Shown here piece after piece: positions 2,427 through 38,510 of a DNA stretch of 60,571 nucleotides. The notes beneath the pieces are model-generated. The model saw only the letters and a list, made by a program, of their open reading frames with translations, searched no databases and had not been told where the DNA came from. The stretch's first letter is position 1; every line of letters begins with the position of its first letter. Origin of the DNA: Candidatus Geocrenenecus dongiae (GTDB lineage Archaea > Thermoproteota > Nitrososphaeria_A > Caldarchaeales > Wolframiiraptoraceae); assembly GCA_023267855.1 (NCBI GenBank), contig JALNLN010000008.1, forward strand, positions 7,237 to 67,807. The letters run 5' to 3'. The translations under genes and the position numbers were made by a program.

Positions 2427-3773
2427 ATGTACGAAGCTGTCGGTTCTGAGACTTTAAAATATCTTGAATTGGCTAAGAAATATCTCCCAATTAGTTTATG
2501 GAGTTCTGAGAGTATAGTAGCTTCTTTCATTGTTGAGAGAGCTGAAGGATCTTATCTAATAGATGTTGAAGGAAGAAGATTTATTGATTTAACAAGTCAG
2601 TGGTCTACAAATAATGTTGGGAATGTTAATGAAGAAGTGCTACAAGCAGCTATAGAAGGGTTAAAACAATATGGTTTCATAATATATGGTCTAAATCTTC
2701 ACAAAGCTGTATTTGACCTTGTATTAGAACTAATCAGGATACGCCCATCTACAAGATTAAGTAGAGTAGCTCTAGAACTATCTGGAACTGGCGCTGTTGA
2801 TGCAGCGGTAAAGTTTACTATAAAAGTTAAGAAAAGACCTCACATAATCAGCTTTCTTGGACAATATCATGGATACTATACGGGAACACTAGGATACGGG
2901 CCGGAAAGTGCTGATTCTAGAAAATACTTTGAGAGTTTCTATGGGAATGCTGCCATACTTCTTCCATATCCAGACTGTTATCGAAAACCAGAATACATGA
3001 GTTGTGAAGAATGGGGGAAGTTCATAATAGATTATATTGAAGATGTAATCTTAAGATACAATGTTGCTCCAGATAGAGTAGCTGGAATACTTTTTGAACC
3101 TATAGCTTGTGAAGCAGGTGTATGGATACCTCCAGACAGCTTTGTATATGGATTAAGAAGGCTTGCAGATAAGTATGATTGGTTCTTAATAGCTGATGAG
3201 GTTATGACTGGGTTTGGTAGAACAGGTAAATGGTTTGCCATTCAACACTGGGGTATAGATGTAGATTTAATGCCTCTTGGAAAAGGTATGAGTGGAGGTA
3301 TATTCCCGATAGCTGCAGTCTATGGATCTGAAGAAGCGATGGCTAAAGAACCAGTAGAATACGGTACAACTTTTGGAGGGCATCCAGCTGGATGCTTAGC
3401 AGCTATAGCAAACATTAGAGTAATAGAGAAGTATAAGCTTGTTGAAAATGCTGAAAGACTGGGCTCAAAAGTTTTGAAGAGGATTAAAGACTGGCCTGAG
3501 AAGTATGAGATAGTTGGTGATGTTAGAGGTAAGGGTTTAGTTATCGGTATAGAATTTGTAAAAGATAAAAAATTGAAGACTAGGAATCCTGAATCAGCTA
3601 GAACAGTATATTTTGAGTGTATAAAACGTGGTGTACTGCCTTTAATGGATGTAGGAGACTGGACACTAAGACTTCAGCCACCCCTAAATATCGAAGAAGA
3701 AGTGTTAATGTATGCAGTAGATGTAATTGAAGATTGTATAAAGATAGCTGAAAAAGAATTTAAGAAAAAGTAG
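2427..3773 (+). CDS. class III PLP-dependent aminotransferase
   Basis: 448 residues. It shows the fold type I class III signatures: GTGAVDAAVKF (~120), QYHGYYTG (~146), the cofactor Asp in IADEVMTGFGRTGKW (D257), and the Schiff-base lysine in PLGKGMSGG (K286). TTFGGHPAG (~312) is the phosphate-binding segment. Such enzymes move amino groups from omega-amino acids, GABA, ornithine or diamines. The gene sits just before a polyamine-type ABC transporter, so a diamine/omega-amino acid substrate is plausible but inferred. A TTTATA element at ~2369 and AGGTG before the ATG fit its own promoter and ribosome-binding site. Confidence 0.9.
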   Translation: MYEAVGSETLKYLELAKKYLPISLWSSESIVASFIVERAEGSYLIDVEGRRFIDLTSQWSTNNVGNVNEEVLQAAIEGLKQYGFIIYGLNLHKAVFDLVLELIRIRPSTRLSRVALELSGTGAVDAAVKFTIKVKKRPHIISFLGQYHGYYTGTLGYGPESADSRKYFESFYGNAAILLPYPDCYRKPEYMSCEEWGKFIIDYIEDVILRYNVAPDRVAGILFEPIACEAGVWIPPDSFVYGLRRLADKYDWFLIADEVMTGFGRTGKWFAIQHWGIDVDLMPLGKGMSGGIFPIAAVYGSEEAMAKEPVEYGTTFGGHPAGCLAAIANIRVIEKYKLVENAERLGSKVLKRIKDWPEKYEIVGDVRGKGLVIGIEFVKDKKLKTRNPESARTVYFECIKRGVLPLMDVGDWTLRLQPPLNIEEEVLMYAVDVIEDCIKIAEKEFKKK

Positions 3774-21234: not shown

Positions 21235-22221
21235 CTATTTGTTAATTCTTATTATTGGTTCAGCATCAAATCCTCTACGTTTAAGATTTCTAGCAAATTC
21301 TTCTGCGTAACCATATACTGTGTATATCTTCTTTGGGTTGCTATGCTCTATGTAGTCTATTAAGCCATAGTAATCTGAATGACCACTTAATGGGAAAGCT
21401 TTATCGTAATTAGGATAACGGAATCTTACGGCCCATCCTGATGCAACCGCCCACTTAATCCTCCTATCTATAGGTAGCCGATCTCTACTACTTGAAACAT
21501 AAACAAATTCTCCACTCTTCACAACTTCTAGACCTTCTCTAGTATTCACAGGAATATACCCTAATCTAACTCCATGTTCACGGTATTTTCGAGATATCCT
21601 AGAAACACTCAAACCAGCAACTACCGGTACATCTAGAAAAACGTTCACCAAGCTTATTACTTCTTGACTTTTACCTAGAGAATAGACTTTGAAAGCAGGA
21701 ATAGATCCTTCTCTTAAAACATCCATTATCCATTTAACAATATCTGCATATATTTTCTCTCTTACAGGAAATTTGTAGACTGGTGAACCGTAAGTTGATT
21801 CAATTATCAAGATGTCTGTAGGTATGGGTTCAGCGAATCCGTGAATTAGGTTTTCATAAGTATTTAGATCTCCAGTATATACTATCCTATCTCCATTTAC
21901 ATCTACTATAAACTGGCTTGAACCTAAAACATGTCCTGAAGGCTCATTAGATATTTCTACATCATTTCTTAAGATTACTTTCTCTCTCCTTCTAAGAGTT
22001 TTCCAGTAACCTCTCCTACCCATAGAACTAAGGATGGAAGCTGTCTCAACACTCATAAAAACGTTCTTTTGCGCTAAGCTCTCTATGTGGTCTAGGTGGG
22101 CATGAGATATCAATTGTATACAATCAGTTCCAAGAGGCTTACTATCAAATACTATGCGTGCCCCTCCTACTTGTAGTAAAAGTCCTCTAAGAATATCTTT
22201 TCTCAACTTTACCAATACCAT
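21235..22221 (-). CDS. metallo-beta-lactamase-fold nuclease-like protein (beta-CASP/Cft2-like)
   Basis: 328 residues. The metal motifs are ISHAHLDH (motif 1, ~38), SGHVLGSSQ (motif 2), YTGDLN (motif 3, ~117) and PLSGHSDYYG near the C-terminus (~277), the order seen in Artemis/Cft2-type DNA or RNA processing enzymes. IIESTYGSP after motif 3 is also typical. It is shorter than CPSF73-like archaeal proteins and lacks KH domains. It may process RNA 3' ends or act in DNA repair. It is divergent from the DUF2070 gene across ~80 nt. Confidence 0.8.
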   Translation of the reverse strand: MVLVKLRKDILRGLLLQVGGARIVFDSKPLGTDCIQLISHAHLDHIESLAQKNVFMSVETASILSSMGRRGYWKTLRRREKVILRNDVEISNEPSGHVLGSSQFIVDVNGDRIVYTGDLNTYENLIHGFAEPIPTDILIIESTYGSPVYKFPVREKIYADIVKWIMDVLREGSIPAFKVYSLGKSQEVISLVNVFLDVPVVAGLSVSRISRKYREHGVRLGYIPVNTREGLEVVKSGEFVYVSSSRDRLPIDRRIKWAVASGWAVRFRYPNYDKAFPLSGHSDYYGLIDYIEHSNPKKIYTVYGYAEEFARNLKRRGFDAEPIIRINK

Positions 22222-22303
22222 AATTGTTTATTCATATTTATTTTTAAACCTTGTAACTCTAGAAGAATCTACAATATACGAGGTAAAAAGACGATGGATT
22301 AAT

Positions 22304-24076
22304 ATGTTCCCATATCTGTCTGATATACAAGATTTGAAGTACGTGAATGCGACTTCTAGATTGGCTTCTCTATACCCATATATTAAAGGGTTACCTGGGA
22401 GAGGAAATCTTCTAAAACTACTAGTCTTAGAAGTAGCGTTGATAGCTTTATTTACCACACTAATTGATAAAGCAATCACGTTTTCTCTCGCTCTATGTTT
22501 CTACATGATAATAATCGTAAACTATCTATTCCATAGGATTGGGAGAGAGTTGGTGAATTTTAGAAGACTCAATGGATTAATGATTATAGAAATGAGTTTG
22601 ATATTTTTGGGTTTACTGTTCTTCTATCTTCTAGATTTAACATTAGGTTACCGTAAGCTAGGTCTCGCAATACTTTCTTCAATGATTAGTTTTGGAGTGC
22701 TTTTAAGAGGTCTCATAGTAAGAACTCTGTCTGGAGATGACGTAAAATCTACGATCACGTATACTTTATCCATATCATTACTCGAGATTTTCCCATTCAT
22801 CTATACAGTACATAAAGATTTAGGCTACGCTGTAATTATAGGTCAAGTTATCGGTAACGTATCACACCACATCTACTCGATCTTCATTAATAGTAGATTA
22901 AAAATAAGAGGTTTAAAACCAATCGAACTTCTCTCAGCCATATTAATGGTATTTCTAGAAGGTAGAAAAGAACATCTAGAAAATCTAGCTGAGAAACTTG
23001 ATACTAAAGCAGAAATAAAGATAGATGTCTTAATGTTTAACCCAATGGATAAAAGTGACAAGATAGCTCTGGTCGTTCCAACATTCCATCCAGGTCCTTT
23101 CAGAGATTTCGGAAGCACAATCTTACCATACATAATAGAGGAGAAGTTTTCTAAGATAGGTGTTAAAACAGTATTTGTTAGGGGTTTATCAGATCATTCT
23201 AGAAACATAATCTCTAGAATGGATTGTGAGTATATCTCTGACACTCTACTTAGAACATTTGAAAACTACGATGGAAGATGCTCTAGTATGGCTGGAGATT
23301 TTAAGATCGTGAAGAAGGATTCTGTCTCAGCCTACCTATTACCCATTGGAAAAACAACGATAGCTATCTTAACACTTCATCCAAAAGGTATGGAGGATAT
23401 TCCACCAGAAGTAATGGAGGGAATTTATAGAGAAGACCTGGTAGTTATAGATGCTCATAATAGTTTCTCTGAGAATGTGAAAGAACTTGATGGAGACAAA
23501 TTTAAGAATATTCGAGAACTCCTTTACATAATCTCAAATACAAACGTAGATAGATCAAGCAATATTATCAAGGCAGGCTATGGAGAGAGTAGAATAGAAG
23601 GATATTCTATTGAAGATGGGGTGGGACCACAGGGGATCCGTGCAATATTGTTAGATAATGGAAAAGAAGAATTTGCATTAATTGTGATTGATTCAAATAA
23701 TGCTATACCTATTGTTAGAGAGAGGATACTTCACGAAGTAGGGAGACTTGGAGTAAGGTATTGTGAAGTTGTTACAACAGATACACATATAGTAAATGGT
23801 GTTAAGCTAGGAGGTAGAGGATACCATCCAATAGGAGAATTAATACCCGTAGAAGCAATAATACCTCCAGTACTCAGAGCTGTTGAGCAAGCTAGAAGAA
23901 ACCTAACAAGAGTAGAAGTATCGAGAATAACGCTTACATTCAATAACGTTAAAGTTATGGCGAAAGATTTTCTAGAAGAAGCAGAAAAGAAAACATTTAA
24001 AGCATTAACCTATCTAGAGATATGTATGGTACTTACATTTATAGCCTCGCTCGTGCTCACCTTAATCACATTCTAA
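22304..24076 (+). CDS. DUF2070 family membrane protein
   Basis: 590 residues from ATG 22304 (MFPYLSDIQDL). The open frame extends upstream to 22154, but that part overlaps the divergent gene and is unlikely to be translated. There are about six or seven hydrophobic segments in the first ~220 residues. A soluble domain follows with VVPTFHPGPFRDFGS, VVIDAHNSF and VTTDTHIVNG, a set of His/Asp residues diagnostic of archaeal DUF2070 proteins. One more membrane helix closes the C-terminus. The conserved His/Asp residues suggest a metal-dependent hydrolase domain (inference); the biological role is unknown. Confidence 0.88.
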   Translation: MFPYLSDIQDLKYVNATSRLASLYPYIKGLPGRGNLLKLLVLEVALIALFTTLIDKAITFSLALCFYMIIIVNYLFHRIGRELVNFRRLNGLMIIEMSLIFLGLLFFYLLDLTLGYRKLGLAILSSMISFGVLLRGLIVRTLSGDDVKSTITYTLSISLLEIFPFIYTVHKDLGYAVIIGQVIGNVSHHIYSIFINSRLKIRGLKPIELLSAILMVFLEGRKEHLENLAEKLDTKAEIKIDVLMFNPMDKSDKIALVVPTFHPGPFRDFGSTILPYIIEEKFSKIGVKTVFVRGLSDHSRNIISRMDCEYISDTLLRTFENYDGRCSSMAGDFKIVKKDSVSAYLLPIGKTTIAILTLHPKGMEDIPPEVMEGIYREDLVVIDAHNSFSENVKELDGDKFKNIRELLYIISNTNVDRSSNIIKAGYGESRIEGYSIEDGVGPQGIRAILLDNGKEEFALIVIDSNNAIPIVRERILHEVGRLGVRYCEVVTTDTHIVNGVKLGGRGYHPIGELIPVEAIIPPVLRAVEQARRNLTRVEVSRITLTFNNVKVMAKDFLEEAEKKTFKALTYLEICMVLTFIASLVLTLITF

Positions 24077-24187: not shown

Positions 24188-24454
24188 TTGAGGAAAGCAA
24201 TAGTAATAGTTGGTAGGAAACCTAAAATCAGGTACGCTACCGCTTGCATAACATTATTCAATAGAGGTGAAAGAGAAATACTTCTAAGAGCTAGGGGTAG
24301 AAGTATAAGTAACTGTATAGATGTAGTACACTTCTTGAAGAAAAGCTTCTACTCCAACCTCAAGGTAAAAGATATAAAGATAGGTTACGATGAAGCAGAA
24401 TTGGATGATAGAAAGATATATGTTAGCTATATTGAGATAACGATTTCTAAATAG
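24188..24454 (+). CDS. albA: Alba-family nucleic-acid-binding protein
   Basis: 88 residues from TTG 24188. AIVIVGRKPKIRYATACITLF (two pieces), ARGRSISNCIDVVHFLKK and a C-terminal VSYIEITI strand match the Alba fold. The usual lysines of the GxKP loop appear as GRKP. Alba proteins coat DNA and RNA and shape archaeal chromatin. Histones are not seen in the window. Confidence 0.88.
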   Translation: MRKAIVIVGRKPKIRYATACITLFNRGEREILLRARGRSISNCIDVVHFLKKSFYSNLKVKDIKIGYDEAELDDRKIYVSYIEITISK

Positions 24455-24530
24455 TATCACAACTATCCATGAATATTATTAGAAAGAGAATTGTTAAGAA
24501 TAGGGAAAACATTATAGATTCGAGGCAGTC

Positions 24531-25850
24531 TTGAAAACCTCAAACGAACTTGCTCAAATACGTTTACAAATCTATGAAACTATCAGGAAAACTAGTAAAT
24601 ATTATTCTAGATCTTTCCACCCCCTCTTCCCAACAATATTCAAAGAAATTCTTGATGGAGTGGTTATAGATATTCTCGGCAGAAGGTATATAGACTTCAA
24701 TTCAAGTAGAGGTATGCTACTTCTAGGCGGAAACAATCCAAGGTTAATCAAAAAGTATAGAGAGATGGTAGAAGGAAATGGGTTTAACAACCTTCCCAAG
24801 GCATATCATAGAGATTACGTAGATCTATGTGAGGAATTATTTAAGATAGCTCCTATTAGAGGTGATAAGAGAGTAATCTTCCTAGATTCTAGATCTGAAG
24901 CTATTGAAGTAGCTATTAGAATTGCTAGATGGTATAGTGGTAAGAAGATGATCTTAGGGTTCACCAACTCATATCATGGATTAACGTTAGCTGCACAATC
25001 CATATCTACAGACACTCCTATAAAATGGAGAAGATTCGACCCCGCACCAGGATTTATCCAGATACCATATCCTACGTGTAGTGTATGCAGGTTAAAGAAA
25101 AGTATTGGGAAATGTGATTTAGATTGTTTGAATATGTTAGAGAATTTTAAAGATATGGGCGTACTTGAAAATGTTTCCTCTATAATCATGAGCCCTCTTA
25201 GAAATGATGGCTTCACACCTCCAGAAAAACACATCTTAAAGATTAGGGATATCTGTAGAGAAAATGATGTCTTGCTTATTCTAGATGAGTCCAGATCTTC
25301 CCCCGCTAGAGTTGGGAGATGGTTTATGATAGATTACTATGGAATTGATGTAGATTGTGTAGTTATCTCAAATCAGCTTTCTTCAGGACACCCTCTCGGA
25401 GTATGTATAACTAGAGAACCTCTACTCAATCTTGAACCAGACTACATAGAACCAGATATTGGAGGAGACATAATTGCTGTTAAACTTGCTCTAGAAACAC
25501 TCTCTATAATTAAAGACGAGGGATTGGTGGAGAGAGCGGAGAGGGTTGGAAGAATTATTGAAGAGAGATTAAGAGATTTATCAAGAGAACTAAAAATAGT
25601 GAATACTGTTGAAGGTAAAGGCATGTACTATACCATACACTTTGCTGGAGTTAAGAATATTAAGAATTTTACAAAATCTTTTGTGTATGAGTGTTTCAAG
25701 ATGGGATTACTTCTCGATATCGTTAGACCTGGAGTAGTAGCTATAACCCCACCAATAACTATCGGGGAAGAGATTTTAAGAAAGGGGTTAGATATCCTAG
25801 AAGCAAAATTACTTGAATTTGATAAATTGCTTGAGAGACAACCTACCTGA
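24531..25850 (+). CDS. class III aminotransferase homologue lacking the PLP lysine
   Basis: 439 residues from TTG. The fold is recognisable: GGNNPRLIKKY (~66), SEAIEVAIRIARWYSG (~122), NSYHGLTLA (~146), LLILDESRSSPARVGRW (~248) and SSGHPLGV (~284). The Schiff-base lysine, expected six residues before that last glycine-proline turn (GKGxxGGxPLG), is Asn281 here. The phosphate-binding 'TTFGG' segment is EPDIGG. A Cys cluster at 183, 186, 195 and 199 is retained. The protein is therefore probably not a normal transaminase. It is intact, without stops, so it may have another function. Its last 8 nt overlap the convergent L44e gene. Confidence 0.82.
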   Translation: MKTSNELAQIRLQIYETIRKTSKYYSRSFHPLFPTIFKEILDGVVIDILGRRYIDFNSSRGMLLLGGNNPRLIKKYREMVEGNGFNNLPKAYHRDYVDLCEELFKIAPIRGDKRVIFLDSRSEAIEVAIRIARWYSGKKMILGFTNSYHGLTLAAQSISTDTPIKWRRFDPAPGFIQIPYPTCSVCRLKKSIGKCDLDCLNMLENFKDMGVLENVSSIIMSPLRNDGFTPPEKHILKIRDICRENDVLLILDESRSSPARVGRWFMIDYYGIDVDCVVISNQLSSGHPLGVCITREPLLNLEPDYIEPDIGGDIIAVKLALETLSIIKDEGLVERAERVGRIIEERLRDLSRELKIVNTVEGKGMYYTIHFAGVKNIKNFTKSFVYECFKMGLLLDIVRPGVVAITPPITIGEEILRKGLDILEAKLLEFDKLLERQPT

Positions 25851-26121
25851 TGATTTCAAGTTTCTTCAATCTTATACCTTCTCTATGTATTGTATAGTTA
25901 CATATCTTACATATCAGTTTCAATGTTTGTTTTTGAGTTGTTTTTGCTTTCTTCCTCTGTATTGGATACTTCTGTCCACCGTAACCATGAAGTTCTCTTT
26001 CATGTCTTCTAGCACCTATCGCTAGAGCCCTCTCTTTCCCTTTTTTGTAAAGTACTACTTTATGTTCAGTATACTTCCGACATCTTGGACAATAGGTATT
26101 GATGATCTCCGGCACCTTCAT
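25843..26121 (-). CDS. rpl44e: ribosomal protein L44e
   Basis: 92 residues if begun at ATG 26121 (MKVPEIINTYC, the usual archaeal N-terminus); ATG 26133 would add four. Zinc-binding CPRC and CKIC pairs bracket ALAIGARRHERELHGYGGQ and PIQRKKAKTTQKQ, all diagnostic. It is a protein of the large ribosomal subunit near the E site. In many archaea it is co-directional with S27e and aIF2-alpha; here it is transcribed divergently from them. Confidence 0.95.
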   Translation of the reverse strand: MKVPEIINTYCPRCRKYTEHKVVLYKKGKERALAIGARRHERELHGYGGQKYPIQRKKAKTTQKQTLKLICKICNYTIHREGIRLKKLEIIR

Positions 26122-26288
26122 ACAAGGAATCATCTATTAACCCTCCTATTAAATCTCTCTCCACTTAAAATAGAATAATTGATTTATGTTGCTGAGTAGA
26201 GATGTATGCCATTGTTTTTTAAGTGTTTTAGATCTAGGTATTCTTTTTTAGATAGATGTTTTTGCATGGTATTAGAGAGGTGGTGGGC

Positions 26289-36385: not shown

Positions 36386-36453
36386 GAAAGTTATTGAAAT
36401 ATATGTAAATAGTTAAAAGTAGAAATTATCTATTGAATTGTGAGGGTAGATTA

Positions 36454-37014
36454 TTGATTGAAATTAGGTGGCATGGGAGAGGTGGTCAGGGGGTAGTAAC
36501 TGTAAGTGATATACTTGCTAGGTCTGTTATATATGAGGGAAAATATGCTCAACATTTTCCAGAATTCGGTCCAGAAAGATCTGGAGCTCCAGTTAAAGCT
36601 TATACAAGAATATCTGATGAACCTATAGAGATACATTCTGGAATTTATGAACCAGACATAATAATCATAATAGACAGAAATATGTCTAAAGATTTCTACT
36701 CATATTTAGATGGTTTAAAGAATGATGGATTATTATTTCTCAACTTAAGTAAAGAAATCTTAAATAGTATTGGTAGAGGAAGAGTTCCAATAGGAGTTAA
36801 GATCTACGTAGCTGACTCTAAGAAGATATCTCTAGAAGAGACGGGCAGATTAATCTTCAATATCCCTATGCTAGGAGCTCTAGCGAGAATAATAAGAACC
36901 CCTAAACTTGAGAGTATAGAAGAGATTTTGAAGACGAGATTTTCAGACGAACTTCTAGAATATAATATAAGAATTCTGAAAAGAGCTTATAGTGAGGTGG
37001 AGATGTTTGAGTGA
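36454..37014 (+). CDS. porG: pyruvate-type 2-oxoacid:ferredoxin oxidoreductase, gamma subunit
   Basis: 186 residues from TTG 36454, which lies six nt after GAGGGT; TTG 36433 would add seven residues. IRWHGRGGQGVVTVSDILA (~4-22) and FPEFGPERSGAPVKAY (~36) are the gamma-subunit signatures. With the delta, alpha and beta genes that follow it makes a four-subunit enzyme that oxidises a 2-oxoacid plus CoA to acyl-CoA, CO2 and reduced ferredoxin. Confidence 0.92.
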   Translation: MIEIRWHGRGGQGVVTVSDILARSVIYEGKYAQHFPEFGPERSGAPVKAYTRISDEPIEIHSGIYEPDIIIIIDRNMSKDFYSYLDGLKNDGLLFLNLSKEILNSIGRGRVPIGVKIYVADSKKISLEETGRLIFNIPMLGALARIIRTPKLESIEEILKTRFSDELLEYNIRILKRAYSEVEMFE

Positions 37015-37312
37015 AAAATTAATTGTAGAGAAGATCGTAAAAGGAGAATTTACTTGGAGATCCCTTCCACCAGCTGCCATGATAAGTGTGCCTACCTCAA
37101 TGATGTATAAGACAGGTTCATGGAGAATAAGCAAGCCCGTGATAGATAGAGATAAATGTACGAAATGTCTCTTATGCTGGGTTTTCTGTCCAGATATGTC
37201 AATAAAAAGATTACCAGATAATAGTGTTGAAGTTGATTATGAATACTGTAAGGGTTGCGGTATATGTGCAGAAGAATGCCCTGTTAAAGCTATAACTATT
37301 GTGGAGGAATGA
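37007..37312 (+). CDS. porD: pyruvate-type 2-oxoacid:ferredoxin oxidoreductase, delta (ferredoxin) subunit
   Basis: 101 residues from TTG 37007 (seven nt after GAGGTG), overlapping the gamma gene. It has two 4Fe-4S motifs: CTKCLLCWVFCP and CKGCGICAEECP. The SLPPAAMISVPTS segment before them is typical of PorD. It relays electrons from the catalytic subunits to ferredoxin. Confidence 0.92.
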   Translation: MSEKLIVEKIVKGEFTWRSLPPAAMISVPTSMMYKTGSWRISKPVIDRDKCTKCLLCWVFCPDMSIKRLPDNSVEVDYEYCKGCGICAEECPVKAITIVEE

Positions 37313-37316
37313 GAAC

Positions 37317-38510
37317 ATGAGCTTAGTTAAACAAATTAGAATGGTAGCCTTAACAGGTAATGAAGCTATTGCATACGCAGTAAAACAAGCTAATGTTGAT
37401 GTTATTGCCGCTTACCCCATAACTCCTCAAACAATAATCGTGGAAAGACTTAGTAAATATGTTGCAGATGGAGAACTAGAAGCAGCTTTCATACAGGCTG
37501 AGAGTGAGCATTCAGCTCTATCAATCTGTATTGGCGCAGCATTAACAGGTGCGAGAACATTTACATCAACAGCTAGCCAAGGTCTAGCACTTATGCATGA
37601 AGTCCTTCACATAGCATCTTCTATGCGTGCCCCAATAGTCATGGCGGTAGCAAACCGTGCTCTAAACTCACCGTTAAACATACACTGCGATCATTCAGAT
37701 ATAATGAATGCTAGAGATACAGGCTGGATACACTTATTTGCAAATAACGTCCAGCAAGCATACGACCTAACTCTAATAGCATTCAGGCTGAGTGAAGATT
37801 TAGATGTTCTATTACCTACATCTATTAATCTGGATGGATTTATTCTCACGCATAGTGTAGAGCCAGTTGAAGTCTTGCCAGATGAAGATGTAAGAAACTT
37901 TCTAGGTGAGAATAGGTATCCTTACGAGATAGACTTCAATAAACCTCTAGCATACGGTGTTATGGCCCTCCCAGATACGTACATGGAGTTCAGAAAACAA
38001 TTATACGAAGTGCTAAAAAGTGCCCCCAGAATATATGATGAGATTGCAGAAGAGTATGCAAAAATATCTGGAAGAAGATACGGTAAACTTTTACCCTACT
38101 TTACAGAAGATGCAGAGGTTATAGTTATTGCTCTAGGATCAAGTGTTGAGACTTTGAAGTATGTTGCAAAAAGACTTAGAAGAGAAGGATTAAAAGCGGG
38201 TGTTCTCGGCATAACGATGTATAGACCTTTCCCAGAAGAAGAATTAGTAGAAATTCTGAGCAAAGCTAAAGTAGTAGTTGTAATGGATAGAGCATATTCC
38301 TACGGTGGAGTAGGTGGGCCACTCTACACAGACGTGCTGTCAACACTATACAAGAATGACTTGAAGATAACTATAGCAGACTTCATCTATGGTTTAGGTG
38401 GTAGAGATTTCAAGATCTCAGATGCTGAAGAAATCTTCAAGAAAGCATTTAGAGCATTAGAGAAAGGAAGCTTTGACCAAGACATATACTGGTGGGGAGT
38501 GAAAGAGTAG
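37317..38510 (+). CDS. porA: pyruvate-type 2-oxoacid:ferredoxin oxidoreductase, alpha subunit
   Basis: 397 residues from ATG 37317, with GGAGG upstream. AAYPITPQTIIVERL (~34), the Glu in QAESEHSAL (~60), FTSTASQGLALMHE (~82) and SPLNIHCDHSD (~118) are PorA signatures. It supplies the pyrimidine-side residues of the TPP site. It ends directly at the beta gene start. Confidence 0.93.
   Translation: MSLVKQIRMVALTGNEAIAYAVKQANVDVIAAYPITPQTIIVERLSKYVADGELEAAFIQAESEHSALSICIGAALTGARTFTSTASQGLALMHEVLHIASSMRAPIVMAVANRALNSPLNIHCDHSDIMNARDTGWIHLFANNVQQAYDLTLIAFRLSEDLDVLLPTSINLDGFILTHSVEPVEVLPDEDVRNFLGENRYPYEIDFNKPLAYGVMALPDTYMEFRKQLYEVLKSAPRIYDEIAEEYAKISGRRYGKLLPYFTEDAEVIVIALGSSVETLKYVAKRLRREGLKAGVLGITMYRPFPEEELVEILSKAKVVVVMDRAYSYGGVGGPLYTDVLSTLYKNDLKITIADFIYGLGGRDFKISDAEEIFKKAFRALEKGSFDQDIYWWGVKE

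Follow-up and report, generated by a model that had tools for sequence, protein, structure and literature searches.

A class III aminotransferase homologue lacking the Schiff-base lysine and its gene pairing with a third Alba paralogue in Candidatus Geocrenenecus dongiae

The window analysed here (the whole stretch of 60,571 nucleotides from Candidatus Geocrenenecus dongiae) contains, at positions 24531 to 25850 of the + strand, a gene for a 439-amino-acid homologue of class III aminotransferases in which the catalytic lysine, which forms the Schiff base with pyridoxal phosphate (PLP), is absent. Judged from its sequence and those of its relatives, this protein is almost certainly a pseudoenzyme that would not carry out transamination. 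The explanation which we prefer, and which we hold tentatively, its chances being somewhat short of even, is that the gene for this non-transaminating class III pseudoenzyme stands second in an ancient Alba-aminotransferase pair, and that the protein is most likely a dimeric, metal-stabilised binding protein acting with a third paralogue of the Alba protein.

Identity, fold and cofactor site of the protein

The reading frame consists of 439 codons with a TTG start, just upstream of which the sequence GAGG is found (24522-24525), and it has no internal stops, in agreement with the first-pass annotation of this DNA, which had described the gene as intact and uninterrupted. Its product matches the Pfam family Aminotran_3 (PF00202) over its whole length (E 1.7e-54; residues 33-425 against positions 10-401 of the 403 in the profile), and the AlphaFold model of the single chain shows a confident class III fold (pLDDT 90.9, pTM 0.90), for which Foldseek gave TM-scores of 0.88-0.91 with PDB entries for class III aminotransferases and racemases. 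The closest solved structures, by profile as well as by fold, are those of archaeal class III amino-acid racemases/ornithine aminotransferase (PDB 9wqz, 9wrf and 7vno) and of isoleucine 2-epimerase (4ysn). However, these proteins bind PLP, and the three structures closest in sequence (7vno, 2eo5 and 9wqz) lack the insertion with four cysteines that is present in the window protein.

In common with the class III aminotransferases, the window protein retains D252-E253 (D252 being the Asp to the pyridine nitrogen), the aromatic plus His-Gly motif (Y148-H149-G150) and the GG which follows the phosphate loop. However, its score with the nearest NCBIfam model (viz. NF004426/PRK05769, 'acetyl ornithine aminotransferase family protein') is only 240.2 bits, below the curated cut-off of 552, and two hallmarks of these enzymes are missing. 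The position of the Schiff-base Lys in every Lys-bearing homologue aligns with Asn281 (codon AAT, 25371-25373), and the PLP-phosphate loop TTFGG is replaced by EPDIGG (residues 307-312; 25449-25466), where the Thr is lost and the GG is kept. Both of these replacements had been recognised in the first-pass annotation, as had the cysteine cluster Cys183-x2-Cys186-x8-Cys195-x3-Cys199 (25077-25127), which is a probable structural metal site. The same annotation had also contrasted this gene with a true aminotransferase in the window (2427-3773, + strand), and a profile match and motif check confirm that the latter has both Lys286 and TTFGG intact. Besides the Lys-less protein, the genome encodes seven class III aminotransferases, and the Lys is kept in all of them.

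Loss of the lysine and selection within the Wolframiiraptoraceae

In what follows, family-level groups are denoted by f and genus-level groups by g, and the window belongs to f1 and g1, together with the Geocrenenecus genomes. A scan of genome contigs with the single sequence of the window protein yielded no relatives, and these were retrieved with an alignment as the query. The contigs carrying the orthologues are named Candidatus Geocrenenecus, Wolframiiraptor and Benthortus, which are genera of the Wolframiiraptoraceae, a family of hot-spring archaea within the Caldarchaeales (PMC9246946). One of the orthologues (G016/L083) is that of Wolframiiraptor gerlachensis, which has been brought into cultivation (PMC9246946). 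The Lys is missing in all 12 full-length orthologues, which come from four genera of this family, and a recent mutation or a sequencing error is ruled out by these 12 independent genomes. The residue found in its place is N/S/S/S/P/A/E/E/A/P/E/E, so that an Asn conserved across the orthologues, for which the first-pass annotation had proposed to look, is not seen; the Gln immediately after this position is nearly invariant. Changes are also observed in other parts of the cofactor site. The TTFGG Thr survives in a single orthologue and is gone from the other 11, D252 is retained in 7 and has become Asn in 5, and at G121, within the SGT phosphate motif, 8 orthologues carry Arg, Phe, Pro or Ile instead. 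When the 144 positions that are near-invariant in the Lys-bearing, Alba-linked homologues are taken as the reference, the PLP-site positions lost in f1 are K281, T309, F310 and Q255, along with G121 in the 8 sequences just noted, and those kept include C183/186/195/199, H149, G150, E253 and R260. These retained residues, as well as G262 and W264, are among the approximately 50 positions that are invariant over the 12 orthologues.

When the window gene is compared with the orthologues nearest to it, dN/dS is saturated, and closer pairs within the clade were used instead. For these pairs within f1, dN/dS lies between 0.06 and 0.18 at dS values of 0.6-2.1, and the family thus evolves under purifying selection. 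As the loss of the Lys is common to the orthologues and these are under purifying selection, it is not a chance event. The suggestion in the first-pass annotation that the gene is selected for something besides standard transamination is borne out by the loss across four genera, by these dN/dS values, and by the finding that no conserved replacement Lys is present nearby. The only invariant Lys residues in the f1 clade are K38 and K426, which in our judgement are not known active-site positions. Many of the residues that became newly invariant in f1 are Arg or Lys. A gain of a basic surface for nucleic-acid binding was considered on this account and dropped, as several of the changes are plain K-to-R replacements and the net charge is not basic. 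The Lys-less proteins are slightly acidic (mean net charge of -5), and direct binding of nucleic acid by them is not suggested by this charge.

Association with Alba and the number of lysine losses

The gene located 76 bp upstream of the aminotransferase homologue (24188-24454, + strand) codes for an Alba-family DNA/RNA-binding protein (PF01918, E 3.3e-11), whose score of 43.2 bits is above the Pfam cut-off of 25. The genome contains three Alba genes, the other two being G000:C37:5647-5895 and G000:C20:63009-63263. Although the upstream gene is a true member of the Alba (Sac10b) chromatin/RNA-binding proteins, it is a divergent third paralogue, with RYVTACITLFNRGE at the place of NYV in the other two, and in the Alba tree it branches apart from both of the other Albas which were sampled from these genomes. 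This third paralogue is found across the Caldarchaeales, with or without the aminotransferase homologue. Upstream of it is a gene for a DUF2070 membrane protein (22154-24076, + strand), which is linked to the same Alba also where the aminotransferase homologue is absent (in f2, in f4 and, within f1, in g4). The start of this reading frame at 22154 overlaps a divergent metallo-hydrolase gene (21235-22221), and the gene itself probably begins at a more downstream position, as it does in the relatives. On the other side lies the convergent gene for ribosomal protein L44e (25843-26133, - strand). In the Geocrenenecus genome G002 and in genus g4, the aminotransferase homologue is absent and the DUF2070-Alba block is followed directly by L44e. 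The homologue is thus dispensable in places, and as Alba stays in G002 and g4 without it, Alba does not need it there. The neighbours of the gene in f1 other than Alba are DUF2070, L44e and S27e. Of the nearby translation and chromatin genes to which the first-pass annotation drew attention, those for translation are local to the Wolframiiraptoraceae, whereas the link to chromatin holds in the sense that it is an Alba paralogue which has been conserved as the partner.

Across the phylum, 14 family-level groups have an Alba gene directly upstream of the aminotransferase homologue and on the same strand. With 1 to 6 Alba genes per genome and about 1,500 genes per genome (our own estimate), the expectation for such adjacency by chance is only on the order of 0.1% per genome, and due to this the pairing is not accidental. 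The Lys is present in the Alba-linked proteins of f3 (the sister family), f5, f11, f26, f34, f38, f56, f58, f59 and f67, and it is absent in those of f1, f16, f17 and f39, so that the Alba link outlasts the loss of the Lys. According to the first-pass annotation, relatives that have the Lys in the same context would imply a recent mutation. The Alba-linked homologue of f3 is indeed such a relative; however, at least four genera had yet to diverge when the Lys was lost, and the implication does not follow. A search for conserved gene neighbours, recommended in the same annotation, identified Alba as the one kept outside the family. It is the only neighbour retained across these families, the remaining ones being reshuffled. 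In f5, f11, f38, f56 and f67, genes for subunits of a 2-oxoacid:ferredoxin oxidoreductase are found upstream of the pair, and the beta subunit in f5 passes the NCBIfam cut-off for 3-methyl-2-oxobutanoate dehydrogenase.

Some other observations concern the surroundings of the pair. In the window, the reading frames at 36433-38000, about 11 kb from the pair, look by eye like subunits of a 2-oxoacid:ferredoxin oxidoreductase (HGRGGQG, TGNEAIAYAVKQ). An OB-fold/RPA-like single-stranded DNA-binding protein is encoded directly downstream of the pair in f3, f16, f67 and f11 (L044 6894-8309, L046 6912-8417, L315 and L016). Several f5 genomes (L166, L170, L174, L183 and L184) have a gene for a GNAT acetyltransferase downstream of the Lys-bearing pair; Alba is regulated by lysine acetylation, and this GNAT may be an Alba-modifying enzyme.

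The cysteine motif CxxC-x8-CxxxC is present in all 41 of the surveyed Alba-linked proteins (inclusive of 26/26 that have the Lys), versus 36 of 67 unlinked Lys-bearing ones, and it is invariant in the 12 f1 orthologues. By this distribution, the cluster is inherited from the Lys-bearing relatives and is no novelty of the Lys-less protein.

The residues at the Lys position in the Alba-linked proteins differ among the families, viz. N/S/P/A/E in f1, G in four genomes and N in two genomes of f39, E in f16 and G in f17. Lys-less relatives without an adjacent Alba are also found in f20 (S; L212/L214), f23 (S; L226), f48 (E; L322) and f36 (E; L257). As the f36 protein groups with a Lys-bearing protein of f35, its loss is a separate event. 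Within a single order, the Lys is kept in f58 (16 of the 16 examined) and f67, and it is absent in f39, f20 and f48. In an aminotransferase tree without outgroups, the Lys-less sequences are placed together (support of 83/81, then 94/82), a grouping which may be the result of long-branch attraction. When outgroups were included and the PLP-site columns were removed, the best rooted tree called for a minimum of three Lys changes. In AU tests neither a single Lys-less clade (p = 0.21) nor the grouping of f1 with f3 (p = 0.40) was rejected, and the aminotransferase tree, which is affected by long branches, does not determine how many losses occurred. The Alba tree, with moderate support, joins the f3 Alba to that of f1 and the f39 Albas to those of f58/f67; a single clade of the linked Albas was neither rejected (p = 0.40) nor demonstrated. 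This grouping favours vertical inheritance of the locus together with at least two losses of the Lys, the latter being implied if the locus was inherited as a unit. A broader reading, to which we give a probability of roughly a third, is that the Lys has been lost repeatedly and independently in an Alba-linked aminotransferase, while the gene stayed next to a third Alba paralogue dedicated to it. The conserved function at the Alba locus would then be non-catalytic, and a metabolic enzyme would have been recruited into archaeal chromatin or a ribonucleoprotein by way of a moonlighting stage.

Possible functions and relation to known systems

In the explanation that we prefer, the Lys-bearing ancestor was probably an aminotransferase of amino-acid catabolism, which passed 2-oxoacids to the ferredoxin oxidoreductase encoded beside the pair. 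This assignment of the ancestor is based upon the Lys-bearing, Alba-linked relatives, which pass the PRK05769 cut-off (678.7 and 630.7 versus 552, with the Lys-less f39 protein at 528), and upon the oxidoreductase neighbours, which fit the catabolism of branched-chain amino acids. The Wolframiiraptoraceae and other lineages would then have lost the Lys along with part of the PLP site but kept the fold, the link to Alba and the Cys4 site, and this conversion to a non-transaminating pseudoenzyme probably occurred more than once. For the modern Lys-less protein we infer a dimer with a metal in the Cys4 site, co-transcribed with the third Alba paralogue, in contact with it and possessing a ligand. 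It would act together with Alba on nucleic acid, as a scaffold, a modulator or a metabolite-responsive partner. In the old active site, H149, G150 and E253 are invariant and 7 of the 12 orthologues still have D252, so that ligands may be bound to some extent even now. The partnership with Alba is the weakest step of this explanation, and we judge it slightly less probable than its opposite. The adjacency of the two genes could instead reflect regulation of a metabolic operon, as in several Lys-bearing families the pair lies beside metabolic genes.

Other explanations have to be weighed against this one. The same oxidoreductase genes could indicate that the gene order is a relic of a metabolic operon and that the protein is a sensor for an amino or 2-oxo acid without a physical link to Alba, and the clean absence of the gene from G002 and g4, where Alba is still in place, agrees with this. 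However, a relic order should decay, yet Alba alone has been kept across those families, and we regard this explanation as improbable. The retained active-site residues, which could point to some ligand binding, could also belong to an enzyme with another chemistry, either PLP/PMP-dependent without an internal aldimine or independent of the cofactor, and Lys-less PLP/PMP enzymes are known elsewhere in the fold-type-I superfamily. In those of the ColD type, which are dehydratases, a conserved His stands for the Lys; however, position 281 is never His here and its residue is not conserved, and the loss of the TTFGG Thr and the frequent changes in G121 and D252 also make such chemistry quite improbable. 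Decay or near-neutral evolution of the gene might be suggested by its absence from some relatives and by its faster change, as its identity within the genus is 46-49%, versus 75-78% for Alba and 53% for DUF2070. However, this is contradicted by the low dN/dS values, and with 12 intact full-length frames and the many invariant positions it is very improbable.

It is also conceivable that one of the seven active class III aminotransferases forms a hetero-oligomer with the Lys-less protein, which as the dead subunit would provide half of the dimer interface and tune its partner. Class III enzymes are dimers with their active sites at the interface, and seven Lys-bearing enzymes are available in the same genome as possible partners, although they are unlinked to the Lys-less gene. 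A parallel is provided by LCB1/SPTLC1 of serine palmitoyltransferase, a homologue with the fold-type-I PLP-enzyme fold that lacks the PLP Lys, is under selection, as is the window protein, and forms an obligate heterodimer with its dedicated active partner LCB2 (PMC3794620). However, no paired active class III gene was found as a conserved neighbour of the Lys-less gene, where the conserved partner gene is Alba, and the interface loop that would complete the site of a partner (TTFGG, whose Thr contacts the PLP phosphate) has itself been lost. We consider this explanation unlikely.

To our knowledge, Lys-less proteins with the PLP fold are rare, and LCB1, the best known among them, was explained only once its partner was found. 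Such pseudoenzymes are already a known kind. However, in the open-access papers searched, we found no report of an Alba-aminotransferase pair or of a class III pseudoenzyme, let alone of one that is Alba-paired, lineage-wide and probably recurrent. The work described here provides a strong pointer to a partner, viz. the Alba paralogue, for a lineage-wide pseudoenzyme, and the Lys-bearing relatives in the same pair permit a comparison of the states before and after the loss. It also calls for caution, as proteins annotated as 'aminotransferase' in these archaeal genomes may be non-enzymes. If the two members of the pair act together, then amino-acid metabolism would be linked to archaeal chromatin or to RNA packaging.
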